From the NCBI RefSeq assembly GCF_001659685.2, contig NZ_LXYE02000057.1, positions 1 through 34,184 on the forward strand: 34,184 nt of DNA, in the 5' to 3' direction. The notes below the pieces were generated by a model. It worked only from the letters and a program-made list of their open reading frames with translations, was not told where the DNA came from and did no database searches. Below, in pieces: positions 20,921 through 34,184 of the stretch. Made by a program: the position numbers and the translations under genes. This stretch comes from Labilibacter marinus (GTDB lineage: Bacteria; Bacteroidota; Bacteroidia; Bacteroidales; Marinilabiliaceae). Each line of letters starts with the position of its first letter. Position 1 is the first letter of the stretch.

Positions 20921-21211
20921 ATGGAGTTATCGCTTGTTTATTATAAAAATAACAACTTTGTATCAAAGTCTATTGGAAATGAAAAGGTATTAGTACCTTT
21001 AACTGATAATGTGGCAGATATGAATAAAGTGTATAACTTAAATGAAGTTGGTTCATTTATATATGATTGCATTAATGGAAGCAGTTCCTTAAGAGAGATA
21101 CTGAGTAGTTTAATTGAAAATTATGAGGTGTCGGAAGAAATTGCAATGGATGATATTAATAATTTTATAACCTTAATGGTTGCTAAAGGAGTTTTATTCA
21201 CCAAACAATAA
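20921..21211 (+). CDS. PqqD-like peptide-binding protein (RiPP recognition element)
   Basis: A 96-residue stand-alone PqqD-family protein (PF05402). Such domains bind leader peptides of ribosomal natural products and hand them to modifying enzymes. The pattern is a beta-rich N-terminus (residues 13-27), the family motif KVYNLNEVGSFIYDCINGSSS (about 36-56), then helices (LREILSSLIENYEV; DINNFITLMVAKGVLF). The YxLNxxGxxIxxxxxG spacing is the strongest evidence. It is the first gene of the operon and is followed 25 bp later by a small peptide gene, the natural candidate for its ligand. No radical SAM enzyme, which is the usual partner of PqqD in PQQ synthesis, lies nearby. Confidence 0.85.
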   Translation: MELSLVYYKNNNFVSKSIGNEKVLVPLTDNVADMNKVYNLNEVGSFIYDCINGSSSLREILSSLIENYEVSEEIAMDDINNFITLMVAKGVLFTKQ

Positions 21212-21236
21212 TGGTTTAGGGATAAGATTTATTTTG

Positions 21237-21461
21237 ATGGAAAAAAGAATACACAAAAAAAGAAAATATTCGAGACCGCAACTGGAGGTTATTGATGTTG
21301 ATCATGAAATATCGATGGTGATGATGACCAGAGCTGATAATCCTCCCGGGTTAGGAGGGTTATCAATAGAAGAATCCCAGGAATCTGGTCCGGCTAGTTC
21401 GTATTCATCTTCAGACGATAGTAATCCATTCGGAGGAAATTCTCCGGATTATTCCAATTAA
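21237..21461 (+). CDS. Candidate precursor peptide, Ser-rich
   Basis: A 74-residue peptide (start ATG 21237). The same frame opens at ATG 21180, but that start overlaps the PqqD gene and gives a non-conserved-looking extension. The N-terminus is very basic (MEKRIHKKRKYSRP). A YSRPQLEVIDVDHEISMVMM segment (11-30) follows, of the Y-x-x-P...E-I-S-hydrophobic type I associate with short Bacteroidota peptides. After TRADNPPGLGG the C-terminal part is acidic and has 11 Ser and 2 Tyr in about 33 residues, with SSYSSSDDSN and NPFGGNSPDYSN. There is no Cys and one Thr, so lanthionine and disulfide chemistry are excluded. Its place between a PqqD-like gene and kinase and protease genes makes it the likely substrate. 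Confidence 0.7.
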   Translation: MEKRIHKKRKYSRPQLEVIDVDHEISMVMMTRADNPPGLGGLSIEESQESGPASSYSSSDDSNPFGGNSPDYSN

Positions 21462-21477
21462 ATTGTGAATATGCAAA

Positions 21478-22380
21478 ATGAGGAATATCATTTTTGTAAA
21501 ATTTGGTGGTTTATTAATTGAACTAATATCACATAGCTCTCAGTTAATCCTAAACAAAGATAGGGGCGTTAAGCATTTTATTACCTCTGCAACTTCAAAA
21601 AAAAGTAATTATTCTATACACTTTCAAGTAGTATCTTCAACAGAGCTATCTGACTTTAAGCAAAAGTTTAAAGGGGAACCTGAAGAAAATGATTATATCA
21701 ATTATGATTGGTTTGTGTCTGAACGGAATGGAGAAATTGCATTAACCGTAGATTATAAGGATCATGAATGTATAAAACAAATTGTAGCATTTGTTAATTC
21801 TAACTCCAAAGATATTAGGGTTGAAATAGAGTTAGTGAACGAAAATTACCCAGTCCATATTGAACCGTTAATGCACCCTTTAGGATCATTATTGATGATT
21901 TATTTGTTTCATTGGAATGAAGGTGCACTTATACATGCGTCGGCAGTGTCAGATAATTGTAATGGGTATTTGTTTACTGGAGTTTCGGGTATTGGAAAGT
22001 CGACAATGGCAAGGCTTTGGCAAGAATGTGGAGCGGAAGTTTTGAATGATGATAGATTAATACTACGTTTAATTGGTGATGATGTTATCGTTTATAATAA
22101 CCCAATGCCATACTATAATCAAAGAGCTCTTAGTTCTTCATTAAAAAAAATATTCTTGCTTAAACAATCTTCACAAAATTATATTAAACCGTTACAGGGA
22201 GTGTTGGCATACTCTCGTGTATTGGGTAATTTTATTCAGCAATTTTATAATCCACAAATGGTTCATAAACATTTAGAAATTGTGGAAAGTATAATTAATA
22301 AAGTGTCTGTTTACGAAGTAGGCTTTAAACCTGATGTTAATATTGTTCGTTTGATAAGAGAAATGGACAATGATGGATAA
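21478..22380 (+). CDS. HPr kinase-like P-loop protein
   Basis: A 300-residue protein whose C-terminal half resembles the HPr kinase/phosphorylase fold. It has His153 in LIHASAV, Walker A GVSGIGKST at 168-176, and LNDDRLIL at 189-196 with the acidic pair expected in the catalytic region. The N-terminal ~130 residues have no recognisable domain. It is not likely a true HprK: no HPr or PTS gene is nearby and the HprK-P signature region is not evident. Homologues of this type in some lasso-peptide clusters phosphorylate a Ser of the peptide, so a peptide kinase role fits the Ser-rich product of the gene 16 bp upstream. The stop overlaps the next start by 11 bp. Confidence 0.8.
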   Translation: MRNIIFVKFGGLLIELISHSSQLILNKDRGVKHFITSATSKKSNYSIHFQVVSSTELSDFKQKFKGEPEENDYINYDWFVSERNGEIALTVDYKDHECIKQIVAFVNSNSKDIRVEIELVNENYPVHIEPLMHPLGSLLMIYLFHWNEGALIHASAVSDNCNGYLFTGVSGIGKSTMARLWQECGAEVLNDDRLILRLIGDDVIVYNNPMPYYNQRALSSSLKKIFLLKQSSQNYIKPLQGVLAYSRVLGNFIQQFYNPQMVHKHLEIVESIINKVSVYEVGFKPDVNIVRLIREMDNDG

Positions 22381-22825
22381 GGAAAGAAAAAGGATATTAT
22401 TTGAGCAGACCTTTGTTTCTTTGTTGGAGCAAGGTAAAGAAATAGAGATACCTGTATATGGACTAAGTATGTTTCCTGTTTTAATGCCTGGAGATCGGGT
22501 AAAGGTAGTGAAAGGTGATAAGTTAAGGATTGGAGATGTAATAGTTTTTAAAAATAATGGTAACTTAATTGCACATCGATTATTAGCTGTTGATATAGAG
22601 AATAAAGTAGTTTTAAGCAAAGGAGATGCTTTAAAGAAATCTGATAAGGTTTACTCTCTTCAATCTATATTAGGAGTTGCCATTGTTCATAAGAGGAATA
22701 ACAAAGAAATTAAATGGACGATGTCTGCCAAAGTTAAGAGAGTATTGGCATTTGTATCTCCCCTTATGGGTTACATAAATTTCTATTTAGGTGTAATATG
22801 GTCAAAGTTTTTCAAAACTTATTAA
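22370..22825 (+). CDS. S24/S26-family signal-peptidase-like protease
   Basis: A 151-residue protein with the S26 fold core. Ser33 lies in VYGLSMFPVLMPGD (the nucleophile box SMxP with its following GD). GDVIVFKNNGNLIAHRLLAV has His69-Arg70 where type I bacterial enzymes use Lys; a Ser/His pair is the pattern of SipW and eukaryotic-type signal peptidases. A KGDAL segment closes the core. It has no N-terminal membrane anchor; a hydrophobic stretch near the C-terminus (about 123-148) may hold it at the membrane. The start is ATG-ATG at 22370/22373 inside the kinase gene, so translational coupling is likely. Expected role: leader removal next to the exporter that follows. Confidence 0.85.
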   Translation: MMDKERKRILFEQTFVSLLEQGKEIEIPVYGLSMFPVLMPGDRVKVVKGDKLRIGDVIVFKNNGNLIAHRLLAVDIENKVVLSKGDALKKSDKVYSLQSILGVAIVHKRNNKEIKWTMSAKVKRVLAFVSPLMGYINFYLGVIWSKFFKTY

Positions 22826-22866
22826 TATCTTTTATCCTTTTTCTTATCTTTTCGCTTTAAAATTTA

Positions 22867-24660
22867 ATGCTTAAAATGAAGCGATTTCAAACCAATGATA
22901 TTTTCCGTTCTTTAAAAATTGTATGGAACTGTTCACCTAAATGGACCCTTGTAAATGCCGCAGTGGTGGTGGTAAAAGGTATAGTACCACTTATGCTCAT
23001 TTTTATTATTCAGTATTTGGTAGATGGTGTGAGCATCCTTGCTTTACAAGCCAATACAAAAGATGTGTACTTAACATTGGTTAATATTCTGTTATTCGCT
23101 GGTGGAGTATTTGTTTTAAATGCAGTATTAAATTCTGTATCTGGTATTATTCGCGAAAAGCATTCGTTCTTCATTACTGATGCGGTTCAGAATATGATTC
23201 ATGAACGAACTACGAGTCTGAATTTTGTCAATTATGATGATTATAATTTTCAAAATATCTACTATCGAGCCATTAATGAAGCTAACTACAGACCATCTAA
23301 GATTTATTATGGATTTATAGGGTTGGTTCAGAATGTGATTACTTTAGCCTTGATAGCAAGTTTATTGGCTAGTCTGCACTGGTTCATGCTTGTAGGTTTG
23401 ATATTGATTTCTATACCGGTGGTTATTATACGCTTAAATTTTTCACAAAAAATATATGCCTTTCAGCGCGAACATACGGAAGAGGAGCGTTATGTGAACT
23501 ATTATAATCGTTTATTAACGGGTAAGGAGTTTGCTAAAGAGCTACGCATCTTTAATTTATCCAAGTTATTTAAACAACGTTTCGAAGAAAGTAAAGTTGA
23601 TTTGCGAGTTAAGCACTTTGGTATGCTTAAGCTCAAAACTAAATATGAGTTATTGTTGCAAATTATTATGGCTTTGGCTTTAATTTCTGTTTTTGGCTAT
23701 ATATCGTTTCAGGCAGTTAATGGGAATTTAACGCAAGGTCAAATGGTCATGTTCTTTTTGGCTTTATATCGAGGTTATAGTTTTTTGCAAGATTTGTTAA
23801 GTCAAATATCGGGGCTTTATGAGGACGGATTGTTTCTGAAAAATTTATTTGAGTTTATGGATCATAAAGAGCTCCGTAAAAAACAAAGTAGGAGTGCTGT
23901 TTTTCCTGTTCCATTGAAAACAGGAATCATAATTGAGAAGGTGTTTTTTAAATACCCTAATAGTAGCAGGCATGTATTTAAAAATCTAAACTTAAATATT
24001 AATAAAGGTGAAACCATTGCTTTGGTTGGGGCTAATGGAGCAGGTAAATCTACTTTAGTAAAGTTGCTTTGTGGCCTGTATGAACCTGATAAGGGAAGTA
24101 TAAGGGCGGATGGTGTCGATATTTCTACTGTGAGCCAACAATCTATATCTGAAAATGTTAGTGCGGTGTTTCAAGATTTTATGCTATATAACTTCTCGGC
24201 AAAAGAAAACATTTGGCTCGGAAATATAAGTAAATCGCAAAACGATGAGGCTATTGTAGAGAGTGCACAAAAATCGGGAGTGAACGACTTGATTCAAGAA
24301 CTTCCCAAAGGATATGAAACGACGTTAGGCACATTATTTAAAGATAGTGAAATGTTAAGCGTTGGAGAATGGCAGCGTATAGCCCTTTCTCGATCTTTTT
24401 TTAACGATGCTCAAATGGTTATCTTAGATGAACCTACTAGTTCGATGGATGCATTTACAGAGACTAATCTAATTGAGAACTTTAAAGCCATAACAAAAGG
24501 AAGAACGGCCATAATTGTAAGCCACCGCATGTCTACCATACATTTAGCCGACAGAATTATTGTATTGGATGATTTTGGAGTCGCCGAGGAAGGAACTCCT
24601 GAAGAGTTACTTAAAAAGAAGGGGCACTTTTATCAGATGGTGGAGTCTATTGGGAGATAG
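22867..24660 (+). CDS. Type I ABC exporter, fused membrane and ATPase domains
   Basis: A half-transporter of 597 residues that would form a homodimer. The membrane domain has about six helices in residues 20-310. The ATPase domain has Walker A GANGAGKST (388-396), the signature SVGEWQR (498-504; LSVGE instead of LSGGQ), Walker B MVILDEPTS (517-525) and the H-loop His553. There is no C39 peptidase domain at the N-terminus, unlike many peptide exporters; the separate protease encoded 41 bp upstream could replace it. It is the last gene of the operon, and no clear terminator follows. An ATG nine bases downstream (Met4) is an alternative start. Confidence 0.92.
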   Translation: MLKMKRFQTNDIFRSLKIVWNCSPKWTLVNAAVVVVKGIVPLMLIFIIQYLVDGVSILALQANTKDVYLTLVNILLFAGGVFVLNAVLNSVSGIIREKHSFFITDAVQNMIHERTTSLNFVNYDDYNFQNIYYRAINEANYRPSKIYYGFIGLVQNVITLALIASLLASLHWFMLVGLILISIPVVIIRLNFSQKIYAFQREHTEEERYVNYYNRLLTGKEFAKELRIFNLSKLFKQRFEESKVDLRVKHFGMLKLKTKYELLLQIIMALALISVFGYISFQAVNGNLTQGQMVMFFLALYRGYSFLQDLLSQISGLYEDGLFLKNLFEFMDHKELRKKQSRSAVFPVPLKTGIIIEKVFFKYPNSSRHVFKNLNLNINKGETIALVGANGAGKSTLVKLLCGLYEPDKGSIRADGVDISTVSQQSISENVSAVFQDFMLYNFSAKENIWLGNISKSQNDEAIVESAQKSGVNDLIQELPKGYETTLGTLFKDSEMLSVGEWQRIALSRSFFNDAQMVILDEPTSSMDAFTETNLIENFKAITKGRTAIIVSHRMSTIHLADRIIVLDDFGVAEEGTPEELLKKKGHFYQMVESIGR

Positions 24661-25454: not shown

Positions 25455-25512
25455 TCACATCAAACTCAGACCAAACTCACAAATATGTGAGTTTGGTCTG
25501 AGTTTGGTGTGA
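25455..25512. repeat. Near-perfect 27-bp inverted repeat with four CAAACTCA half-sites
   Basis: Arms 25455-25481 and 25486-25512 pair over 27 bp with one T-G position, around a four-base AATA loop. Each arm contains two CAAACTCA units: 25461-25468 and 25472-25479 on the left, and their complements at 25488-25495 and 25499-25506 on the right. The spacing is 11 bp within each arm. There is no good T-run on either side, so a terminator is unlikely. Confidence 0.85.
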
Positions 25513-25831
25513 CTTTTATATGAATTACTTCTGAACCAGTTACGCATCAGTATCGAAGTAATGCTCAGTATAGTTTGGTGTATGGGAGATGTGAGCAAAG
25601 CAAATGTCCTCTTCAACCAAGAGAGAAGTTTTATGGCTACTCAAGGTGGTATTCGGATCTATTAGTCTGCAAGCGGCATTATAGTCTGTAAAGGTATTGT
25701 CTATGGGAATTGCGAAAACACCTCCTGACTTGTTTCTCACCAAGAGTTGTAGCAAAATGATGTTTTTAAAGTCTGAAGCTTAGTAATTAAAAGCAATACG
25801 CTCATTTTTTCATTCCATAGCTCCCTGAAAG

Positions 25832-26474: not shown

Positions 26475-29400
26475 ATGAAAAATATATACACTTTTTTAGC
26501 TGTTGTGTTGATGATTGGTTCGTTGGGTGTTTCTGAAGCACAGAACCCATACGCTGACGGAACAAACCTTGCTGACGGAACAGATATAAATGTTACATGG
26601 TCAGTTGCTGGTGGCGAAGAGGTAAATGCTCTTGGCGATTTGTCAACAAGCCAGGCAGGTATAATTAATGGTGATTTAATTGTTGCGGGCGATTTAGATG
26701 CAGTAGATATAAGTGTTTATGGTAAACTAACTGTAAATGGTGACTATGTAGATAGTGATTGGTCAGGACTGCATATATATTCTGGTGGTGTTGTTGAAAT
26801 AATTGGATCTTTCAATTCGAGTCAATCAATTGTTGTTGATGCGGGAGCTACACTTATTGTTTACGAGAACTTAACGCAAGGTAATGGAATGACCATTAAT
26901 GGGAATGTTGTGGTAGTTGGTTCCTTGACGTGTGTTGGAGAAATTAACATAGCTTCAGTAACTGGTAATTTGGTAGTTGGTGAAGATTTAGTTGCAGGAA
27001 ATAATGTAACAATTGATGGTGATTCTAATGCTGAACTTACTAATAATGTATACGTAATTAATGGTACGGCTTCAGGTGAAAGTTGGTCGAGTATAGAGAC
27101 TAATGGTGCAGGGGATTTGGGGGATTATACCACCAATGAATCAGGAAATACAGACTTAACTGATATTGTAACCTCAGCAGCAATTGTACCGGAGCCAAAA
27201 ACATACTATACCTTGGCATCTGGAGATTGGGATGACGAAGACATTTGGACACAAGACCCGGCAGGATCTATCTCTATTGATAAAGCAGTGCCATCTGATG
27301 GTGATCATATTGTTATACTTACAGGTAAAACAGTAACTGTGCCTGATGGAAATCCTCCTTATGCTAGCGATGTAACTTTAGATTTAGGTTCTGTAACTAT
27401 ATATGGTCAATTGGATTTGCGAAAATCCTCAGACCATGCTTTTGAAAGTTTAAAGGGTAATGGCCGTTTATTAATGGCTGATGATAATTACCCTACAATT
27501 ACTGATGATTCAAAGTTTGTGGATGAAAGTGAAGATGAAGGAACAGCAGTTTATTATGGAGATAGTTTTTCTTTAATCAATGCTCAAACTTTTTATAATT
27601 TGGAGGTAGATGCTAGTGGTGAAATTATCACTTTGGAGGATGATTGTACTTTAAATGGAAATCTACTTGTAAAAGCAGGGACATTAAAAGTTAATGATAC
27701 CGGAACTAGTGTAATAACTCTTGATGTTGCTAAAGATGTAACTATCCAAAGTAGTGGGTTAATGATGGTAGGGACAGGAGACTCTTACTCTGCCCATGCT
27801 CAGTATCATCAATTTATAATCGCAGGAGACCTTACTAATAATGGAACTGCTGAGTTCACTAATAGAGGAGCGGCAGTATACGATGTAGATGATACGGGTG
27901 GTGCAGTTGAGGTTATTTTTAATAGTCCTAGTAAGGATCAGGTATTAGAATGTAATGGACTTACTGTTTTTAACCAGTTAACTTGTGATAAAGGTTCGGA
28001 TAAAACTTTTATGCTTGATGTAAGTGCTACTTCTACCAATAATTTTAAAATTTATGGTAGAAATGATGTTCAGCCCAGTGGTGATCCTGGAGATAGAGAT
28101 GGTAATAAAGCCTTAAGATTATTGGCGGGAACACTAAAGCTAGGGAGTAATATTGTTATTGAAGATATATCGGAAAACAATTCATTTGACATTGATACAG
28201 ATGCACGTCTGTGGCTGGATAATAATGCAATAGTAACCCTTACAGGGGATGATATTTATTTATATGGAGAATTAAAACTATCAGGAACAAGTCAGTTTTA
28301 CGAACATTCTAATAATAATGGCTTAAAGTTACGATCACTTGGTATATTAAATATTGAAGGAGGTACTCACGAATTTAACTCAATTGGAGCCTCAACTAGT
28401 GGCTCGGCTGGCACACAATTAGGAGCCTACCTTCAATCAGGAGGAGACGTAACGGTGCTTAGTGAGAATTCTGGTTACGAATGTGCAGCATTCCACCTAC
28501 CATTTAAAACAAATGTGTTTCAAATGTCAGGTGGTACACTTACCGTAATAGATGATGGAGATACAAGTGGAGGTGATAATTTCACCTTAATCATCAATTC
28601 AGCTGAAGGTAACTATAATGTAACTGGAGGTACGGTAAAATTAGCCAATAAGCATGATTATCCTCACAAGTTTATTTCCAGAGCACCTTTCTGGGACTTG
28701 TTATTAAGTAGCGATAATAATGATGGTGGTTATCAGTTGGCAGCATATACCGAGTCTGGTGGACCTCAATATGAAAATGTAGAAGTTGTTCCTCTTGTAG
28801 TACTTAATGATTTGACTATTGATAATATAAGAAATCAAACTTTTGATGCAAATAACATAGATGTTGAGATAAGTGGTGACTTTATTATTGAATCAGGAGC
28901 TGCATACGATCCAGGAAGCAATACTACTTATTTTAATGGTGCGAAAGAAAGTGAAATTGTTATAGAATCAGTATCATCAGTTTTGGATATGAATAAAGTA
29001 TTGGTAGACAAAGACGATAATACTTGGAGTGTAAAAATTAATGCACCAAACTTTACGGGAGATCATCCTCTTGAAATAGGAGATAGCTTGATAATTACCC
29101 GAGGTCTATTTGATGTGGTAGATTATGAGGTGGATGTAAAGGGTAATGTTGCTATTACAGATGGTGGTATTGAAGCTACTGGTTCATCTGCTGGTAAAAT
29201 TGTTTTAAATAATGGATCCGCACAACAAACTCTTTTAGGATCGGCTATTTATAATCCGTCTTTTGGTCGTATAGAACTTGATAATGGCACCCATGGTGCA
29301 GCTATTGAGTCAGATGTGATCATGGATTATTTTGAACTGACTAGTGGTGTTTTAAACCTAGGAGATTATAGGTTGACGGTAAATGACGATGCCATTGTAG

Positions 29401-32400
29401 GAAGTGGTTATAGTGCCTCTAAGATGATACAGACATCTGGTGGCCATGGAGCTCGAGGGCTAAGGTTTAAATTAACAGAAGATTATGGAGGTGGAGAAAC
29501 AATATTATATCCAGTAGGAACACCCGGAGAATATACGCGTTGTGAAGTGAGTATAACAGGTAATATTGCAGCTGTTGATGGCTATTTTACAATCGTTCCG
29601 GTTGCTCTAGAACATCCAACATATGAGCCAGGTAAGAATATTGATGTGATGGCTTATTATTGGAAAACTAAAGCAGAAAGTCTTTCCAATATTGCAAGTA
29701 ATGTTGAGTATCAGTTCTATTGTGGGGATGTTTCTCCTATTAGTAAAGAGTATTATTATTTAGGAACTACTTGGACGCAAGGGGGTAATGCAAATAATCC
29801 ATTGGTGTTTGAGTCGGGTAATATTAACGGATTTGCTACAGGCGATTTTACAAGTGGTGAAAACAATGGATTTAAAAATGTAACAACAGTATATACCGTT
29901 GGTTCTGGAGATTGGGATGAGGGAACTGTATGGAGTTCAGGTAGTGTACCAAAATCATATGAGTTTGTAGAAATTAGAAATGGGCATACTGTAACTATGG
30001 ATATTGATGGTGTTACTGTAGGTTCGTTAACAATTGAAGAAGGAGGTAAGCTTGAAGTTGAAACAACCACTGGACATACCTTTAATATTGTAAAAGGTGA
30101 CGGAACATTTAGTATTGCTAGTGCAACAATTCCAACTGCTGATTATTATGAGTTTATGTATAGCGATTTGGCAACATTTGAATATAGAGGTGATGTGAAT
30201 ATTGATATCCCAACAGACTTTTCGGTTTATCCTAACTTGTTTATTGCTGGGGCGAGTAGAAAGTCGCTGCCTAATAATATGGATATATTGGTTAGGAAAA
30301 ACCTAACAATTGATGGAAATGTAACTTTGAGGACGAATAGTGCCGATGATTTAACGATTCAAAATAATTTAGTTATTGATAATGGTGGTTTACTGGAGAT
30401 TAATCACGGTAATTCTCATGAGATAACTGTTTATGGTTCGATGGATTTAAGCGGGGCAGGTGCAAATGAGATTTTAGTTAGAGATGGAGGTACAAATACT
30501 CAAACTTCAAAAGTTAATTTATATAAGGATATTTTACTGTCCTCTAATTCCAAAATTGATTTATGGAGTGATATATCCAAGTCTATAGAATTACATTTTC
30601 TAGGAGATGAGGATTCAAATGTTGATAATAGTGTTGGAGGTAGTTTAGATTTTAGTAGAATAGTAGTTAATAAATCATTGAGTACCTCGACGGTGTACAT
30701 TAATGGAGGATTGAATTTGTACGCCCCTACTGATGAAGTAACAAAGTCAATTCATCTAATAAAAGGAATTTGTCATTTAGAAGATGTTGGTACGCATACT
30801 ATCTCATCAGGTACTTATGATTTTAAAATTCCATCGGGTACAACTTTAAAAGTTGATGATGGAACTACATTAAATGTAATAGGTGATGATAAAGGTATAT
30901 GGCTAGATGGATCTTTAATCATTGAAGATGGCGGTATTGTTAATAATAATGGTGGAACAAATAATTATATTGAATATTCTTCTTCTGGTGATGCAAACAT
31001 TACCTTAAATGGCGCAGGAACTCTGAAGGTTGGATCTCAAATTCGTCGTTCTTTGTTTATAGATTTGGGCGTGTTAACGCTGAATCAGAATAGCACCACT
31101 GCAAATACATTGCTTGTAGGAGATACGGATACCGGAGACCAAAGTCGAGGAATGTTTGAAATATTAGGAATAGGAAGTTCGTTTACGCAAGCACATGGGA
31201 CTAATATAATTATAGAGCGTGGTCATGGAACCGATAATATATCTCTTTATTTCGATCCTGCGACATCGTCTATTGCTACCGATGCCGGTTTTACTATAGG
31301 TAACACTCAAACGCCTTCAAATAATACGGTTGCTATTTATGCACCTAAAGAAATAAATAATCTTACCGTAGCTAGTGGCAATGTAACAGCTCAGTTGTTT
31401 GTTAATCCTCTAACAATAAATGGAGATTTATTAATAACAAACGGTGTATTTGATACTAACGATTTAGATTTAACATTAAAAGGTAATTTTACAAATAGTG
31501 TTGGTACTGCAGGTTTTGATGCAGGTAATAATATAACATATTTTACAGGATCTACTGATCAAACTATTAGTGGAGAAACAACTTTCGATCATGTTATAAA
31601 AGAAACTGAATCTACTTCGCTAATACTTGATGCAGATATAACAACTGACGATCTGACCTTAAGTTCAGGTTCTTTAAATACAGGGATATATGATTTAACT
31701 GTACTAGGTGATTTGTACAATGCTATTACAACTTCTAGTTCAGATCCGAGTCAAGGTGTTGTAATGGCAGGTCCTGATGTTCAACAATTAAGTGGAGCAG
31801 GTACCTTTGCTCGTTTAACCATAAATAATCCTAATGGAGTTGCGGTTCCAACTCAATCAGGTTCTATTAATTTTACTGATTATTTACAGTTAACGGATGG
31901 GGTTTTGGATATTGGGCGTAACTTGTTGTTATTAAATGAGGATGCTACTTTTATAGGAGTTGGTTCCGATCCTGATCCGGCTATGGCCTTTAGTGATAAT
32001 AATATGGTTCAGACCAACCTATCTTTTGTTGATAATGGTATTAAAAAAGTATTTCCTCTAGTGTCGGGGTCAACATACTCATTTGTTTATCCAATAGGTT
32101 CCTTAGGGAAATATACGCCTGTAACAGCGAGTATTACTACTAATGGTAATAATACCGGTTCAATAAGAGTAAAGGCTGCGGACGAACATCATGCAAGTAT
32201 TACTGATCGTTCAGAAACAGCCTACGATGACACGAAAAATGTATTGCAATATAATTGGACGCTAGATGCGGATGGTATAGACGGGTTTACTGCGAACTTT
32301 GTGATGAAAGGAAATGCTTCAGACGCTCTAGTTACAGATGGAAATCTAGTAAGTGATTATATTACTGCGCGAATATTGTTAGATGAGATTAAGTGGAAAA

Positions 32401-34184
32401 AATTTGATGAAGCTGATTATTTCAATGAAGCTGATACTGAATTAACTTTTAACTTTGCTGATTATAGTGATGGTGATATCGATGGTGATTATACGGCTGG
32501 TATTGCAGATGCTATTCCTGATTTATTGGCTGCTTATATAACTGTCGTTGATAATGGAGATTGGGATGAAGAGTCTACTTGGAAACCGTATAATCCAGAA
32601 ACAGGTATAACAGATACGGGAGGAGATGGTCCTACAGGTGGTCCTAGGGGAAGTTTGGTTTATGTAGATAGAAATGTAATTATGCCATCTAACTTCATGT
32701 CGGCTTATCGTACAAATATTCTTGAATCAGGAACTATTACTACAGGAACTACAATTGGTCATCGATTAGGAGATGTGTCTGGAACAGGACTGTTAAATTT
32801 AGGCAGTGGTAACTTGCCTGCAGGTATTTACGATGAATTCTTTTCGAATAATGGTGGTACGCTGCAGTATTCGGGTACTTCAAGTTATGATATATTAAGT
32901 GAAATTACGGAAGTAAATAACCTGAAACTAATAGGGAGTGGTTCTGACGTACGACGTTTGCCTAATGTAGAGAGCGGATTCCAGATATTAGGAGACCTTA
33001 CGATTGAGGATGTTCATGTAGAAAATACCCATAATCGAAATATGTTTATTGCAGGAGATGTTGTATTTACTTCAGGTACTTTTGATGCTGGAACGACTAG
33101 TGGTGATAGAATTCCAACAGTTACTTTTAATGGAACCAGCTTGCAGGATGTTTCAGGAGGTGTTGATTTTACATCATTAGGGGCAGGTGCATTTTATAAT
33201 TTTGAGATAAACAATGTTTCAGGTGTAACGATTTCAAATAATATTGAAATAGAAAATGTGTTAAAACTTGGTAGTGGAGTCATTTTTGCGGATGCAGGAG
33301 GTAGTGTTAAAGTGACTAACTCTTCTGGAAGTGCTGTGAGCGATGGTGGTGAATCATCTTATGTACAAGGCCCTTTAAGTAAGGTTATAAATAATTCAGA
33401 TAGCTTTACATTCCCTGTTGGTGATCAAAATAGGTTTATGCCTATAAATATTGCCACAGATGGAAGTGGTGGCGGAACGGAATCTTGGGAAGTACAGTAT
33501 TATAGTTCTGCGTTTTCAGATGTTTCTGCTAATTTGCCTGATGTAGCTTATGTAAGTCGTTCGGATTACTGGAGGGTTTTAGCGGAGTCTTCTAATAATG
33601 CAAAAGTAACTTTAAATTGGGATGCAGCAAGTGGAGTAGACCCAGATAATGGTCAGTCGAGTATGATAAAATATTCCTCAGCAAATTTATGGGAAGTTGA
33701 GGCAGGAACATTCTCTGAAACGTCAACGTCTTCTTCAGGAAGTATTGTGTCAAATAGCTTAATTGGATTTAATGATCATGTAGCTGAAGGTAATTATTTT
33801 ACGTTTGGTTCTATAACAATACCAACGTATGATTGGAATGGAACATCCTCTGATTGGTTTGATCCAAACAACTGGGATTTAGGTTTTGTACCGAGTGCGG
33901 GTACAGATATTACAATTGGTACTGATGGGACAGATCCTATTGTTAGTAGTGCAGGTGTTGCTCAGGTAAATAATTTAACTATTAATTCAGGTGTCAGTCT
34001 TACTCTTCAGCCAGGAGCTCAAATGACCATTAATGGAGATGTGGTTTGTGATAATGGAGCTTTTGTAATTCAAAATTCAGTAAATCAACCTTCATCTCTT
34101 ATTCATCATGGAAGCATGACTGATAGAACAGTGACAGATACACCTGCTCAGGTACAATGGACTTATAGTGATAATCGTTATTTT
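26475..34184 (+). CDS. Very large secreted surface protein, partial (3' end outside window)
   Basis: An uninterrupted frame of 2570 codons that runs off the window end. Residues 1-22 form a signal peptide (cut probably at SEA-Q). The rest is Asn/Asp/Gly/Thr/Ser-rich with a beta-strand rhythm, consistent with stacked beta-solenoid or adhesin-like repeats. Three degenerate families are visible. One is a GDWD...W module (residues 244, 1140, 2022 and a WNGTSSDW variant at 2453). The second is a YPxG-type module (nt about 29506, 32088 and 33410). The third is a short unit of the form F-x-G-S-x-x-Q-x-I-x-G...F-x-x-L-x-I-x-N with about eight copies. It is typical of Bacteroidota cell-surface proteins exported by type IX secretion; the C-terminal sorting domain would lie beyond 34184. 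Its role (adhesion, gliding or matrix) is not shown. No neighbour in this window is cotranscribed with it. Confidence 0.88.
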   Translation, partial: MKNIYTFLAVVLMIGSLGVSEAQNPYADGTNLADGTDINVTWSVAGGEEVNALGDLSTSQAGIINGDLIVAGDLDAVDISVYGKLTVNGDYVDSDWSGLHIYSGGVVEIIGSFNSSQSIVVDAGATLIVYENLTQGNGMTINGNVVVVGSLTCVGEINIASVTGNLVVGEDLVAGNNVTIDGDSNAELTNNVYVINGTASGESWSSIETNGAGDLGDYTTNESGNTDLTDIVTSAAIVPEPKTYYTLASGDWDDEDIWTQDPAGSISIDKAVPSDGDHIVILTGKTVTVPDGNPPYASDVTLDLGSVTIYGQLDLRKSSDHAFESLKGNGRLLMADDNYPTITDDSKFVDESEDEGTAVYYGDSFSLINAQTFYNLEVDASGEIITLEDDCTLNGNLLVKAGTLKVNDTGTSVITLDVAKDVTIQSSGLMMVGTGDSYSAHAQYHQFIIAGDLTNNGTAEFTNRGAAVYDVDDTGGAVEVIFNSPSKDQVLECNGLTVFNQLTCDKGSDKTFMLDVSATSTNNFKIYGRNDVQPSGDPGDRDGNKALRLLAGTLKLGSNIVIEDISENNSFDIDTDARLWLDNNAIVTLTGDDIYLYGELKLSGTSQFYEHSNNNGLKLRSLGILNIEGGTHEFNSIGASTSGSAGTQLGAYLQSGGDVTVLSENSGYECAAFHLPFKTNVFQMSGGTLTVIDDGDTSGGDNFTLIINSAEGNYNVTGGTVKLANKHDYPHKFISRAPFWDLLLSSDNNDGGYQLAAYTESGGPQYENVEVVPLVVLNDLTIDNIRNQTFDANNIDVEISGDFIIESGAAYDPGSNTTYFNGAKESEIVIESVSSVLDMNKVLVDKDDNTWSVKINAPNFTGDHPLEIGDSLIITRGLFDVVDYEVDVKGNVAITDGGIEATGSSAGKIVLNNGSAQQTLLGSAIYNPSFGRIELDNGTHGAAIESDVIMDYFELTSGVLNLGDYRLTVNDDAIVGSGYSASKMIQTSGGHGARGLRFKLTEDYGGGETILYPVGTPGEYTRCEVSITGNIAAVDGYFTIVPVALEHPTYEPGKNIDVMAYYWKTKAESLSNIASNVEYQFYCGDVSPISKEYYYLGTTWTQGGNANNPLVFESGNINGFATGDFTSGENNGFKNVTTVYTVGSGDWDEGTVWSSGSVPKSYEFVEIRNGHTVTMDIDGVTVGSLTIEEGGKLEVETTTGHTFNIVKGDGTFSIASATIPTADYYEFMYSDLATFEYRGDVNIDIPTDFSVYPNLFIAGASRKSLPNNMDILVRKNLTIDGNVTLRTNSADDLTIQNNLVIDNGGLLEINHGNSHEITVYGSMDLSGAGANEILVRDGGTNTQTSKVNLYKDILLSSNSKIDLWSDISKSIELHFLGDEDSNVDNSVGGSLDFSRIVVNKSLSTSTVYINGGLNLYAPTDEVTKSIHLIKGICHLEDVGTHTISSGTYDFKIPSGTTLKVDDGTTLNVIGDDKGIWLDGSLIIEDGGIVNNNGGTNNYIEYSSSGDANITLNGAGTLKVGSQIRRSLFIDLGVLTLNQNSTTANTLLVGDTDTGDQSRGMFEILGIGSSFTQAHGTNIIIERGHGTDNISLYFDPATSSIATDAGFTIGNTQTPSNNTVAIYAPKEINNLTVASGNVTAQLFVNPLTINGDLLITNGVFDTNDLDLTLKGNFTNSVGTAGFDAGNNITYFTGSTDQTISGETTFDHVIKETESTSLILDADITTDDLTLSSGSLNTGIYDLTVLGDLYNAITTSSSDPSQGVVMAGPDVQQLSGAGTFARLTINNPNGVAVPTQSGSINFTDYLQLTDGVLDIGRNLLLLNEDATFIGVGSDPDPAMAFSDNNMVQTNLSFVDNGIKKVFPLVSGSTYSFVYPIGSLGKYTPVTASITTNGNNTGSIRVKAADEHHASITDRSETAYDDTKNVLQYNWTLDADGIDGFTANFVMKGNASDALVTDGNLVSDYITARILLDEIKWKKFDEADYFNEADTELTFNFADYSDGDIDGDYTAGIADAIPDLLAAYITVVDNGDWDEESTWKPYNPETGITDTGGDGPTGGPRGSLVYVDRNVIMPSNFMSAYRTNILESGTITTGTTIGHRLGDVSGTGLLNLGSGNLPAGIYDEFFSNNGGTLQYSGTSSYDILSEITEVNNLKLIGSGSDVRRLPNVESGFQILGDLTIEDVHVENTHNRNMFIAGDVVFTSGTFDAGTTSGDRIPTVTFNGTSLQDVSGGVDFTSLGAGAFYNFEINNVSGVTISNNIEIENVLKLGSGVIFADAGGSVKVTNSSGSAVSDGGESSYVQGPLSKVINNSDSFTFPVGDQNRFMPINIATDGSGGGTESWEVQYYSSAFSDVSANLPDVAYVSRSDYWRVLAESSNNAKVTLNWDAASGVDPDNGQSSMIKYSSANLWEVEAGTFSETSTSSSGSIVSNSLIGFNDHVAEGNYFTFGSITIPTYDWNGTSSDWFDPNNWDLGFVPSAGTDITIGTDGTDPIVSSAGVAQVNNLTINSGVSLTLQPGAQMTINGDVVCDNGAFVIQNSVNQPSSLIHHGSMTDRTVTDTPAQVQWTYSDNRYF

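Follow-up and report, generated by a model that had tools for sequence, protein, structure and literature searches.

A probable lasso-like peptide maturation and export cassette in Labilibacter marinus, with precursors often encoded behind type IX secretion surface proteins

What is produced by a run of five genes that encode a leader-binding protein, a small peptide, a kinase, a protease and an exporter? We addressed this question in a window of 34,184 nucleotides from Labilibacter marinus, which is an entire contig (NZ_LXYE02000057.1; G000:C53 in our numbering). The five open reading frames (ORFs), all on the + strand, encode a PqqD-like leader-binding protein of the lasso B1/RRE (recognition element) type (96 aa, positions 20921 to 21211; PF05402, E = 7.2e-14), a 74-aa precursor peptide (21237 to 21461), a 300-aa kinase with a predicted HprK/PEPCK fold (21478 to 22380), a 151-aa Sec11-type Ser/His S26 protease (22370 to 22825; TIGR02228, E = 2.5e-9, which lies under the family cut-off), and a 597-aa ABC exporter without a C39 domain (22867 to 24660; PF00005, E = 2.9e-32). 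A previous sequence-only reading had described five co-directional ORFs with intergenic gaps of 25, 16, -11 and 41 bp, and both the arrangement and the distances were confirmed. We consider it fairly probable that these genes form a cassette for the maturation and export of a peptide resembling the ribosomally synthesized and post-translationally modified peptides (RiPPs), lasso-like without cyclisation, and that it works together with surface proteins of the type IX secretion system (T9SS).

The window peptide consists of the leader YSRPQLEVIDVDHEISMVMMT, followed by a variable region rich in Pro, Gly, Asp and Ser, with NPFGG close to the C-terminus. The mechanically called ORF opens earlier, at a TTG (21180), while the 74-aa version starts at the ATG in 21237. 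It had no Pfam or NCBIfam match at E ≤ 1, and its 41-member aligned family could be assigned to no Pfam or NCBIfam family (best weak matches, E of 0.13 and 0.033). The peptides have in common the leader pattern Y-x2-P-x-hydrophobic-x5-D-x8-[S/T]. Within the alignment, Y/F..P.hydrophobic was found in 40 of the 41 peptides, while the Asp at Y+11 and a Ser or Thr at Y+20 (24 Ser and 17 Thr, never Ala or Gly) were present in every one, so that the small gene is indeed conserved as a peptide with the same N-terminal pattern. In a wider set of 62 peptides, position Y+20 was Ser/Thr in 61, the sole exception being a mis-anchored row (L035) whose true YTKP anchor puts a Ser at +20; in another peptide, L115_7167, Y..P is absent from the called frame. 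In the same set, Y+15 was Ser in 47 cases and Thr in 5, and Pro was the most frequent residue at +2 and +3 after the Y+20 Ser/Thr (29/62 and 33/62). Beyond Y+20, Pro, Ser, Asp and Gly are abundant and Cys is absent, and a PF, PY or PL motif occurs near the C-terminus in 31/41 peptides; no conserved double-Gly was found in the leaders. An iterated profile search supplied the initial 14 peptides, on which the profiles that retrieved the wider set were then trained; part of the conservation at the leader positions therefore reflects selection by the search. In the 41 loci to which it was applied, the leader pattern matched 14/14 cassette peptides and a single one of 5191 further small ORFs.

In order to see how far the peptide accompanies the other genes, we used an order-level sample of 295 genomes and a phylum-wide sample of 326. 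In the former, a close kinase was defined by E ≤ 1.4e-20 (26 genomes), a threshold chosen once the distance to the next match (5.3e-15) was known, and peptide presence by E ≤ 1.1e-6. The close kinase was present in 26 genomes and the peptide in 28: both occurred in 23, only the kinase in 3, only the peptide in 5, and neither in 264 (Fisher p = 2e-26, on genome counts that ignore shared ancestry). None of the 38 genomes with a weaker kinase had a peptide at this threshold. In the phylum-wide sample, the peptide (E ≤ 0.001) was found in precisely the 3 genomes with a close kinase (E ≤ 1.3e-68), two of them outside the class of the window, and in none of the 9 genomes with weaker kinases (E ≥ 9e-27). 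Around the 26 close kinases of the order sample (three of these loci are truncated by the contig end), the peptide lay within 1 kb upstream in 14 and PqqD in 20, while S26 was within 1 kb downstream in 22 and the ABC gene within 1.7 kb in 16. The check suggested by the sequence-only reading, whether a peptide gene with the same N-terminal pattern accompanies the set, thus came out largely in its favour: such a gene adjoined the kinase in 14 of 26 loci and was present somewhere in the genome in 23 of 26.

Most of the peptides are encoded elsewhere, many of them behind T9SS surface proteins, which the sequence-only reading missed. A profile search of 27 genomes gave a credible peptide match in 23 (24 were listed at E ≤ 1, and the G051 match, with an E of 0.44 in a 313-aa frame, was dropped as not credible), with further members far from the cassette. 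At E ≤ 1.1e-6, there were 51 peptide places in the order sample, 14 at the cassette and 37 away from the machinery. The window genome itself encodes four family peptides, and the window PqqD is the sole match for this protein in that genome. One cassette seems to serve several peptides. A one-pattern scan of wider genome contigs yielded at least 17 loci. Two contigs labelled Alphaproteobacteria and Methanoregulaceae (L131 and L135) carry Bacteroidota-like cassettes and are possibly mis-binned contigs of metagenome-assembled genomes.

Many Bacteroidota use the T9SS to build adhesins, gliding machinery and surface enzymes. The upstream neighbours of peptides away from the cassette were often large proteins with a C-terminal T9SS sorting domain. 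Using a profile, we found that 41/63 peptides (6/14 of those at the cassette and 35/49 of the others) have a co-directional gene for a sorting-domain protein no more than 400 bp upstream. This profile was trained partly on the partner proteins themselves; a second one, built from 34 non-partner sorting domains, gave 38/63 at E ≤ 0.01 and 31/63 at E ≤ 0.001. Because the trans peptides were retrieved by their profile score, the 63 peptides are a non-random sample. In 69 control loci, distant ones included, a sorting-domain gene preceded 26/43 peptides versus 27/783 other genes. The ORFs of this control were selected by ourselves, taking the longest ones of at least 60 aa, mostly without overlap; among the 27 were 9 PqqD genes of the same system. 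All 15 partner sorting domains tested matched TIGR04183 at E ≤ 0.1, some of them under the family cut-off. The PNP motif was not found in 32/40 partners (three of which were too short to judge) versus 23/58 non-partners. Given that many precursors sit directly behind a T9SS cargo gene, joint action of the mature peptide with the surface protein seems most likely. Our searches of the open-access literature, a limited part of the whole since most subscription papers fall outside it, gave no description of this gene set or of the pairing.

Two observations were made alongside. An NLVGNPY motif was present in 17/40 partners (such as L102, L108, L111, L112 and L115) versus 8/58 other sorting-domain proteins. 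In genome G085, a 38-aa ORF (MMVKIKKYYTKSEIISIKIN...; L191:1110-1226) behind a partner-type sorting-domain gene resembles a decayed peptide. SprA (TIGR04189) was rejected as a discriminator, being present at E ≤ 0.001 in 278/295 genomes, including all 28 with a peptide.

Domain, fold and motif evidence agreed with the identities proposed earlier for the four larger proteins. When a PqqD profile was built from 17 homologues, its first matches were 9x90, a lasso PqqD chaperone, and TbiB1. The kinase was barely recognizable from its amino acids, with a Pfam Hpr_kinase_C match under the cut-off (E = 0.018) and a similarity to HprK over a short stretch only (E = 0.00096). Its predicted model (pLDDT of 92.9) had 44 PDB matches at E ≤ 0.001, all of them PEPCK or HPr kinases, and residues 148-300 superposed on HprK/P at 2.4-2.9 Å over 116-121 residues. 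Residues H153, S170, G171, G173, K174, T176 and D192, invariant in 21 rows, align with the H, GDSGVGKS and DDR of HprK. The model can thus be placed confidently in the HprK/PEPCK fold, and the protein is probably a peptide Ser/Thr kinase.

For the S26 protein, the best solved sequences were SEC11C/A (SEC11C, E = 3.8e-11), and a fold search retrieved SipA, LexA and SEC11C at E values from 6.6e-4 to 1.1e-3; S33, H69, R70, G85 and D86 were invariant in 21 rows and D92 was kept in at least 90%. The exporter showed no C39 family among its 14 Pfam matches, and its best NCBIfam match, MsbA, was under the cut-off. In five loci (L041, L042, L045, L131 and L134), protease and exporter are a single polypeptide, which supports that they act together. 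By homology and gene arrangement, the S26 enzyme is probably the leader peptidase and the ABC protein the peptide exporter. These fusions look like an S26 counterpart of the C39-containing exporters.

The system had been described as belonging to no standard RiPP class. This description did not hold; the YxxPxL leader and a PqqD protein nearest to lasso B1 make it lasso-like instead. According to PMC10368454, the lasso leader motif YxxPxL spans positions -17 to -12, placing Thr(-2) at Y+15, and B1 assists the phosphorylation of a leader-bearing precursor. The fixed hydroxyl residue of the cassette peptides is located five residues beyond the position of this Thr. The absence of the lasso B2 protease and the cyclase, also proposed earlier, stood for the protease in the window genome (no PF13471 match) and for the cyclase among the cassette genes, where no asparagine-synthetase-like enzyme was seen; whole genomes were not searched with PF00733. 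Among 27 related genomes, PF13471 was above the cut-off in five, on contigs other than that of the cassette. Since it is missing from the window genome and lies off the cassette contig elsewhere, the locus does not resemble a lasso cluster that has broken down, a judgement for which the cyclase was sought among the cassette genes and not genome-wide. The cassette probably corresponds to the leader-reading and kinase half of the phosphorylated lasso systems; it lacks the lasso protease and probably the cyclase as well.

We also reconsidered the claim that the kinase is the only visible modifying enzyme. Its HprK active-site motifs are kept, but an uncharacterised PF14907 nucleotidyltransferase, which may modify the peptide too, is encoded in 23/28 peptide genomes versus 72/267 others. 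Its gene lay no more than about 6 kb from that of the kinase in 9/26 genomes and is unlinked in the window genome (C61). In five genomes, it shares a contig with PF13471 (G047:C625, G051:C22, G157:C544, G170:C283 and G263:C277); some PF14907 genes may therefore belong to separate clusters, and these contigs probably hold genuine lasso clusters, in addition to the cassette present in the same genomes. The pseudomycoidin enzyme PsmN is, we assume, a member of PF14907. In PMC9266682, PsmN, annotated as a nucleotidyltransferase, is tied to hexoses on a phosphorylated Ser. Overall, the interpretation of the sequence-only reading was partly supported.

Taking these data together, the pathway that we propose would run as follows. 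By analogy with lasso B1, PqqD would bind the leader through Y-x2-P-x-hydrophobic and hold it while the HprK-fold kinase phosphorylates a hydroxyl, the likeliest target being the invariant Ser/Thr at Y+20 or a Ser of the core. Chemistry on the Y+20 hydroxyl is favoured over a cleavage rule that demands a small residue because this position is always Ser/Thr and never Ala or Gly. In many genomes, the PF14907 enzyme may then make an addition to the phosphate. Gene order and the S26-ABC fusions suggest that the Sec11-like protease would cleave close to the point where the conserved leader ends, and that the exporter would move the Pro/Ser/Asp/Gly-rich remainder across the inner membrane. A single cassette would serve multiple precursors in trans, and the mature peptide would most likely act together with the neighbouring T9SS surface protein.

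Several observations weigh against this proposal. The set is not uniform, as PqqD was absent within 1 kb of the kinase in 6/26 loci, S26 in 4 and ABC (1.7 kb) in 10; no peptide was detected in three genomes with a close kinase (G038, G112 and G051) and no kinase in five with a peptide (G123, G163, G236, G256 and G291). No sorting-domain gene was found by the profile upstream of 22/63 peptides, and in the window genome only one of the four (in contig C2) directly follows one, the window peptide following a TsaD-like gene. T9SS sorting domains are also abundant (93 matches at E ≤ 0.01 in G085, where 4/5 peptides follow one), so that some adjacency would arise anyway, although much less than was observed. 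The invariant Ser/Thr at Y+20 could be a determinant for the protease rather than a phosphosite; lasso Thr(-2) shows that a leader protease, too, can require a hydroxyl. Moreover, the family has no sharp border. Peptide matches with E of 0.004-0.01 were also obtained in G055, G111 and G245 (loci L212, L213 and L214; L215; and L216, respectively), three weaker-kinase genomes that were left out of the co-occurrence table; these matches keep Y..P, with Ser at Y+20 in 4/5 and Asp at Y+11 in 1/5, and no sorting-domain match was found in the retrieved stretches. Being small YxxP peptides of a related type, they make it probable that the family reaches past the tight group, and its wider part may accompany weaker kinases.

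Other explanations were weighed against the same evidence. That the cassette secretes an essentially unmodified peptide (a signal or bacteriocin), the HprK-like protein serving as a regulator or as a chaperone that depends on ATP, and that the peptides adjoin T9SS genes through co-regulation only, seems unlikely to us. It would fit a cassette that holds a protease and an exporter, with no product known, as well as the short stretch over which the kinase resembles HprK in sequence; against it are the preserved H, P-loop and DD motifs, the confidently assigned fold and the Ser/Thr at a fixed position in 41/41 peptides. We give practically no credence to the explanation that the small ORF arose by chance among four genuine operon genes: it is short and not adjacent to the kinase in 12/26 loci, but its 41 aligned relatives with fixed positions and the strong genome-level co-occurrence already refute this view.

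We regard as very unlikely a lasso system with the protease and cyclase located elsewhere in the genome or lost. The leader, the lasso-type B1, the HprK-type kinase and, often, the nucleotidyltransferase are as in phosphorylated lasso clusters, 1/41 peptides weakly matches the paeninodin precursor model (E = 0.042), and the search for a cyclase covered the cassette and not the genome. Against this stand the missing PF13471 in the window genome, its restriction to 5/27 relatives, a Ser/Thr invariant at Y+20 instead of Y+15, and the preference for Pro just after it; a broken lasso cluster is disfavoured for the same two reasons, the missing PF13471 and the shifted Ser/Thr, with the same limit on the cyclase. 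Only a slim chance, smaller still, is left for a role in exopolysaccharide or capsule biosynthesis, in which the small protein would be an accessory regulator. This idea draws on distant sets (L060, L063 and L066) that lie, as judged by eye, among glycosyltransferase and polysaccharide-export-like genes. However, at E ≤ 1.1e-6 the peptide is missing from all weaker-kinase genomes (three have weak, related matches), and many close sets or their peptides adjoin T9SS genes; the resemblance to a capsule locus applies to some distant sets and not to the close ones. As a side remark, the distant HprK/S26/PqqD/ABC sets (L057-L071), several of them near a PF14907 enzyme and some among polysaccharide-like genes, may, from gene content, be a sister system; when the same leader was sought in these 15 loci, only one chance-like ORF (L066_17250) appeared.

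In the window, the five-gene set starts 123 bp downstream of the upstream neighbour, which we take to be a TsaD-like gene. Another 1.8 kb further downstream there is a giant surface-protein-like ORF with a G8 domain (26475 to 34184, + strand, 2570 aa), cut by the contig end, which is a possible partner of the window peptide. In the congener G238, an ORF in a similar position is likewise truncated (L211), and because both contigs end inside the gene, no sorting domain is visible in either. The breaks in both congeners within this gene are perhaps due to repeats. No clear gene is seen in the 1.8 kb that separate the ABC gene from this ORF, and the interval contains a near-perfect inverted repeat (CTCAGACCAAACTCACA ... 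TGTGAGTTTGGTCTGAG, 25455-25515) in the window.

If the proposed maturation pathway is correct, this would be a lasso-related RiPP pathway that stops before cyclisation, in which a kinase is a central modifier and a signal-peptidase-like enzyme does the trimming, and it would be the first case known to us in which type IX secretion is linked to maturation of the RiPP type. The surface of these bacteria may bear tailored peptides of a kind not known so far, and the pairing of one peptide with one large surface protein makes its function directly testable. A bolder version appears doubtful to us: the mature peptide, phosphorylated and perhaps also glycosylated or nucleotidylated, would be produced and trimmed within the cell, leave it through its own ABC transporter and then associate physically with the neighbouring T9SS protein at the surface, either by binding or by being joined to it. 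Were this true, the peptide might, for example, stand in place of, or alongside, the usual lipopolysaccharide anchor, providing a second, peptide-based route for finishing T9SS cargo.

Each component has a known relative. The kinase has the C-terminal domain fold and the His, GxSGxGKS and DDR motifs of HPr kinase/phosphorylase. The protease shares the Ser, His-Arg and Gly-Asp motifs and the S26/LexA-type fold with SEC11-type signal peptidases (S26B), but it sits in a peptide cassette and has a long C-terminal helix (120-150). As in the PCAT exporters, in which a C39 peptidase is fused to the ABC protein, an ABC exporter appears to be paired with a leader peptidase; the peptidase of the cassette belongs to the S26 Ser/His type and not to the C39 Cys one, for which reason the cassette is not a PCAT, and the double-Gly leader is not conserved. 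The upstream neighbours of many peptides carry the same C-terminal sorting domain as T9SS type A cargo, while differing in that the PNP motif of the usual domain was mostly not found. The type A system is not known to include a gene for a small tailored peptide immediately downstream of the cargo gene. The nearest relatives are the phosphorylated lasso peptides (paeninodin PadeK, pseudomycoidin PsmK/PsmN and BsfK/BsfB1), which, as described in PMC9266682 and PMC10368454, share with the cassette a separate PqqD-type B1, the YxxPxL leader, a kinase (whose action on the precursor is here predicted) and sometimes a nucleotidyltransferase. We do not file the system as a lasso peptide because PF13471 was not found in the window genome and the leader spacing differs (a fixed Ser/Thr at Y+20 versus Thr at Y+15). 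In contrast to those clusters, it has a Sec11-type Ser/His protease, no cyclase in the cassette, and precursors that are mostly encoded in trans, many of them behind T9SS proteins.

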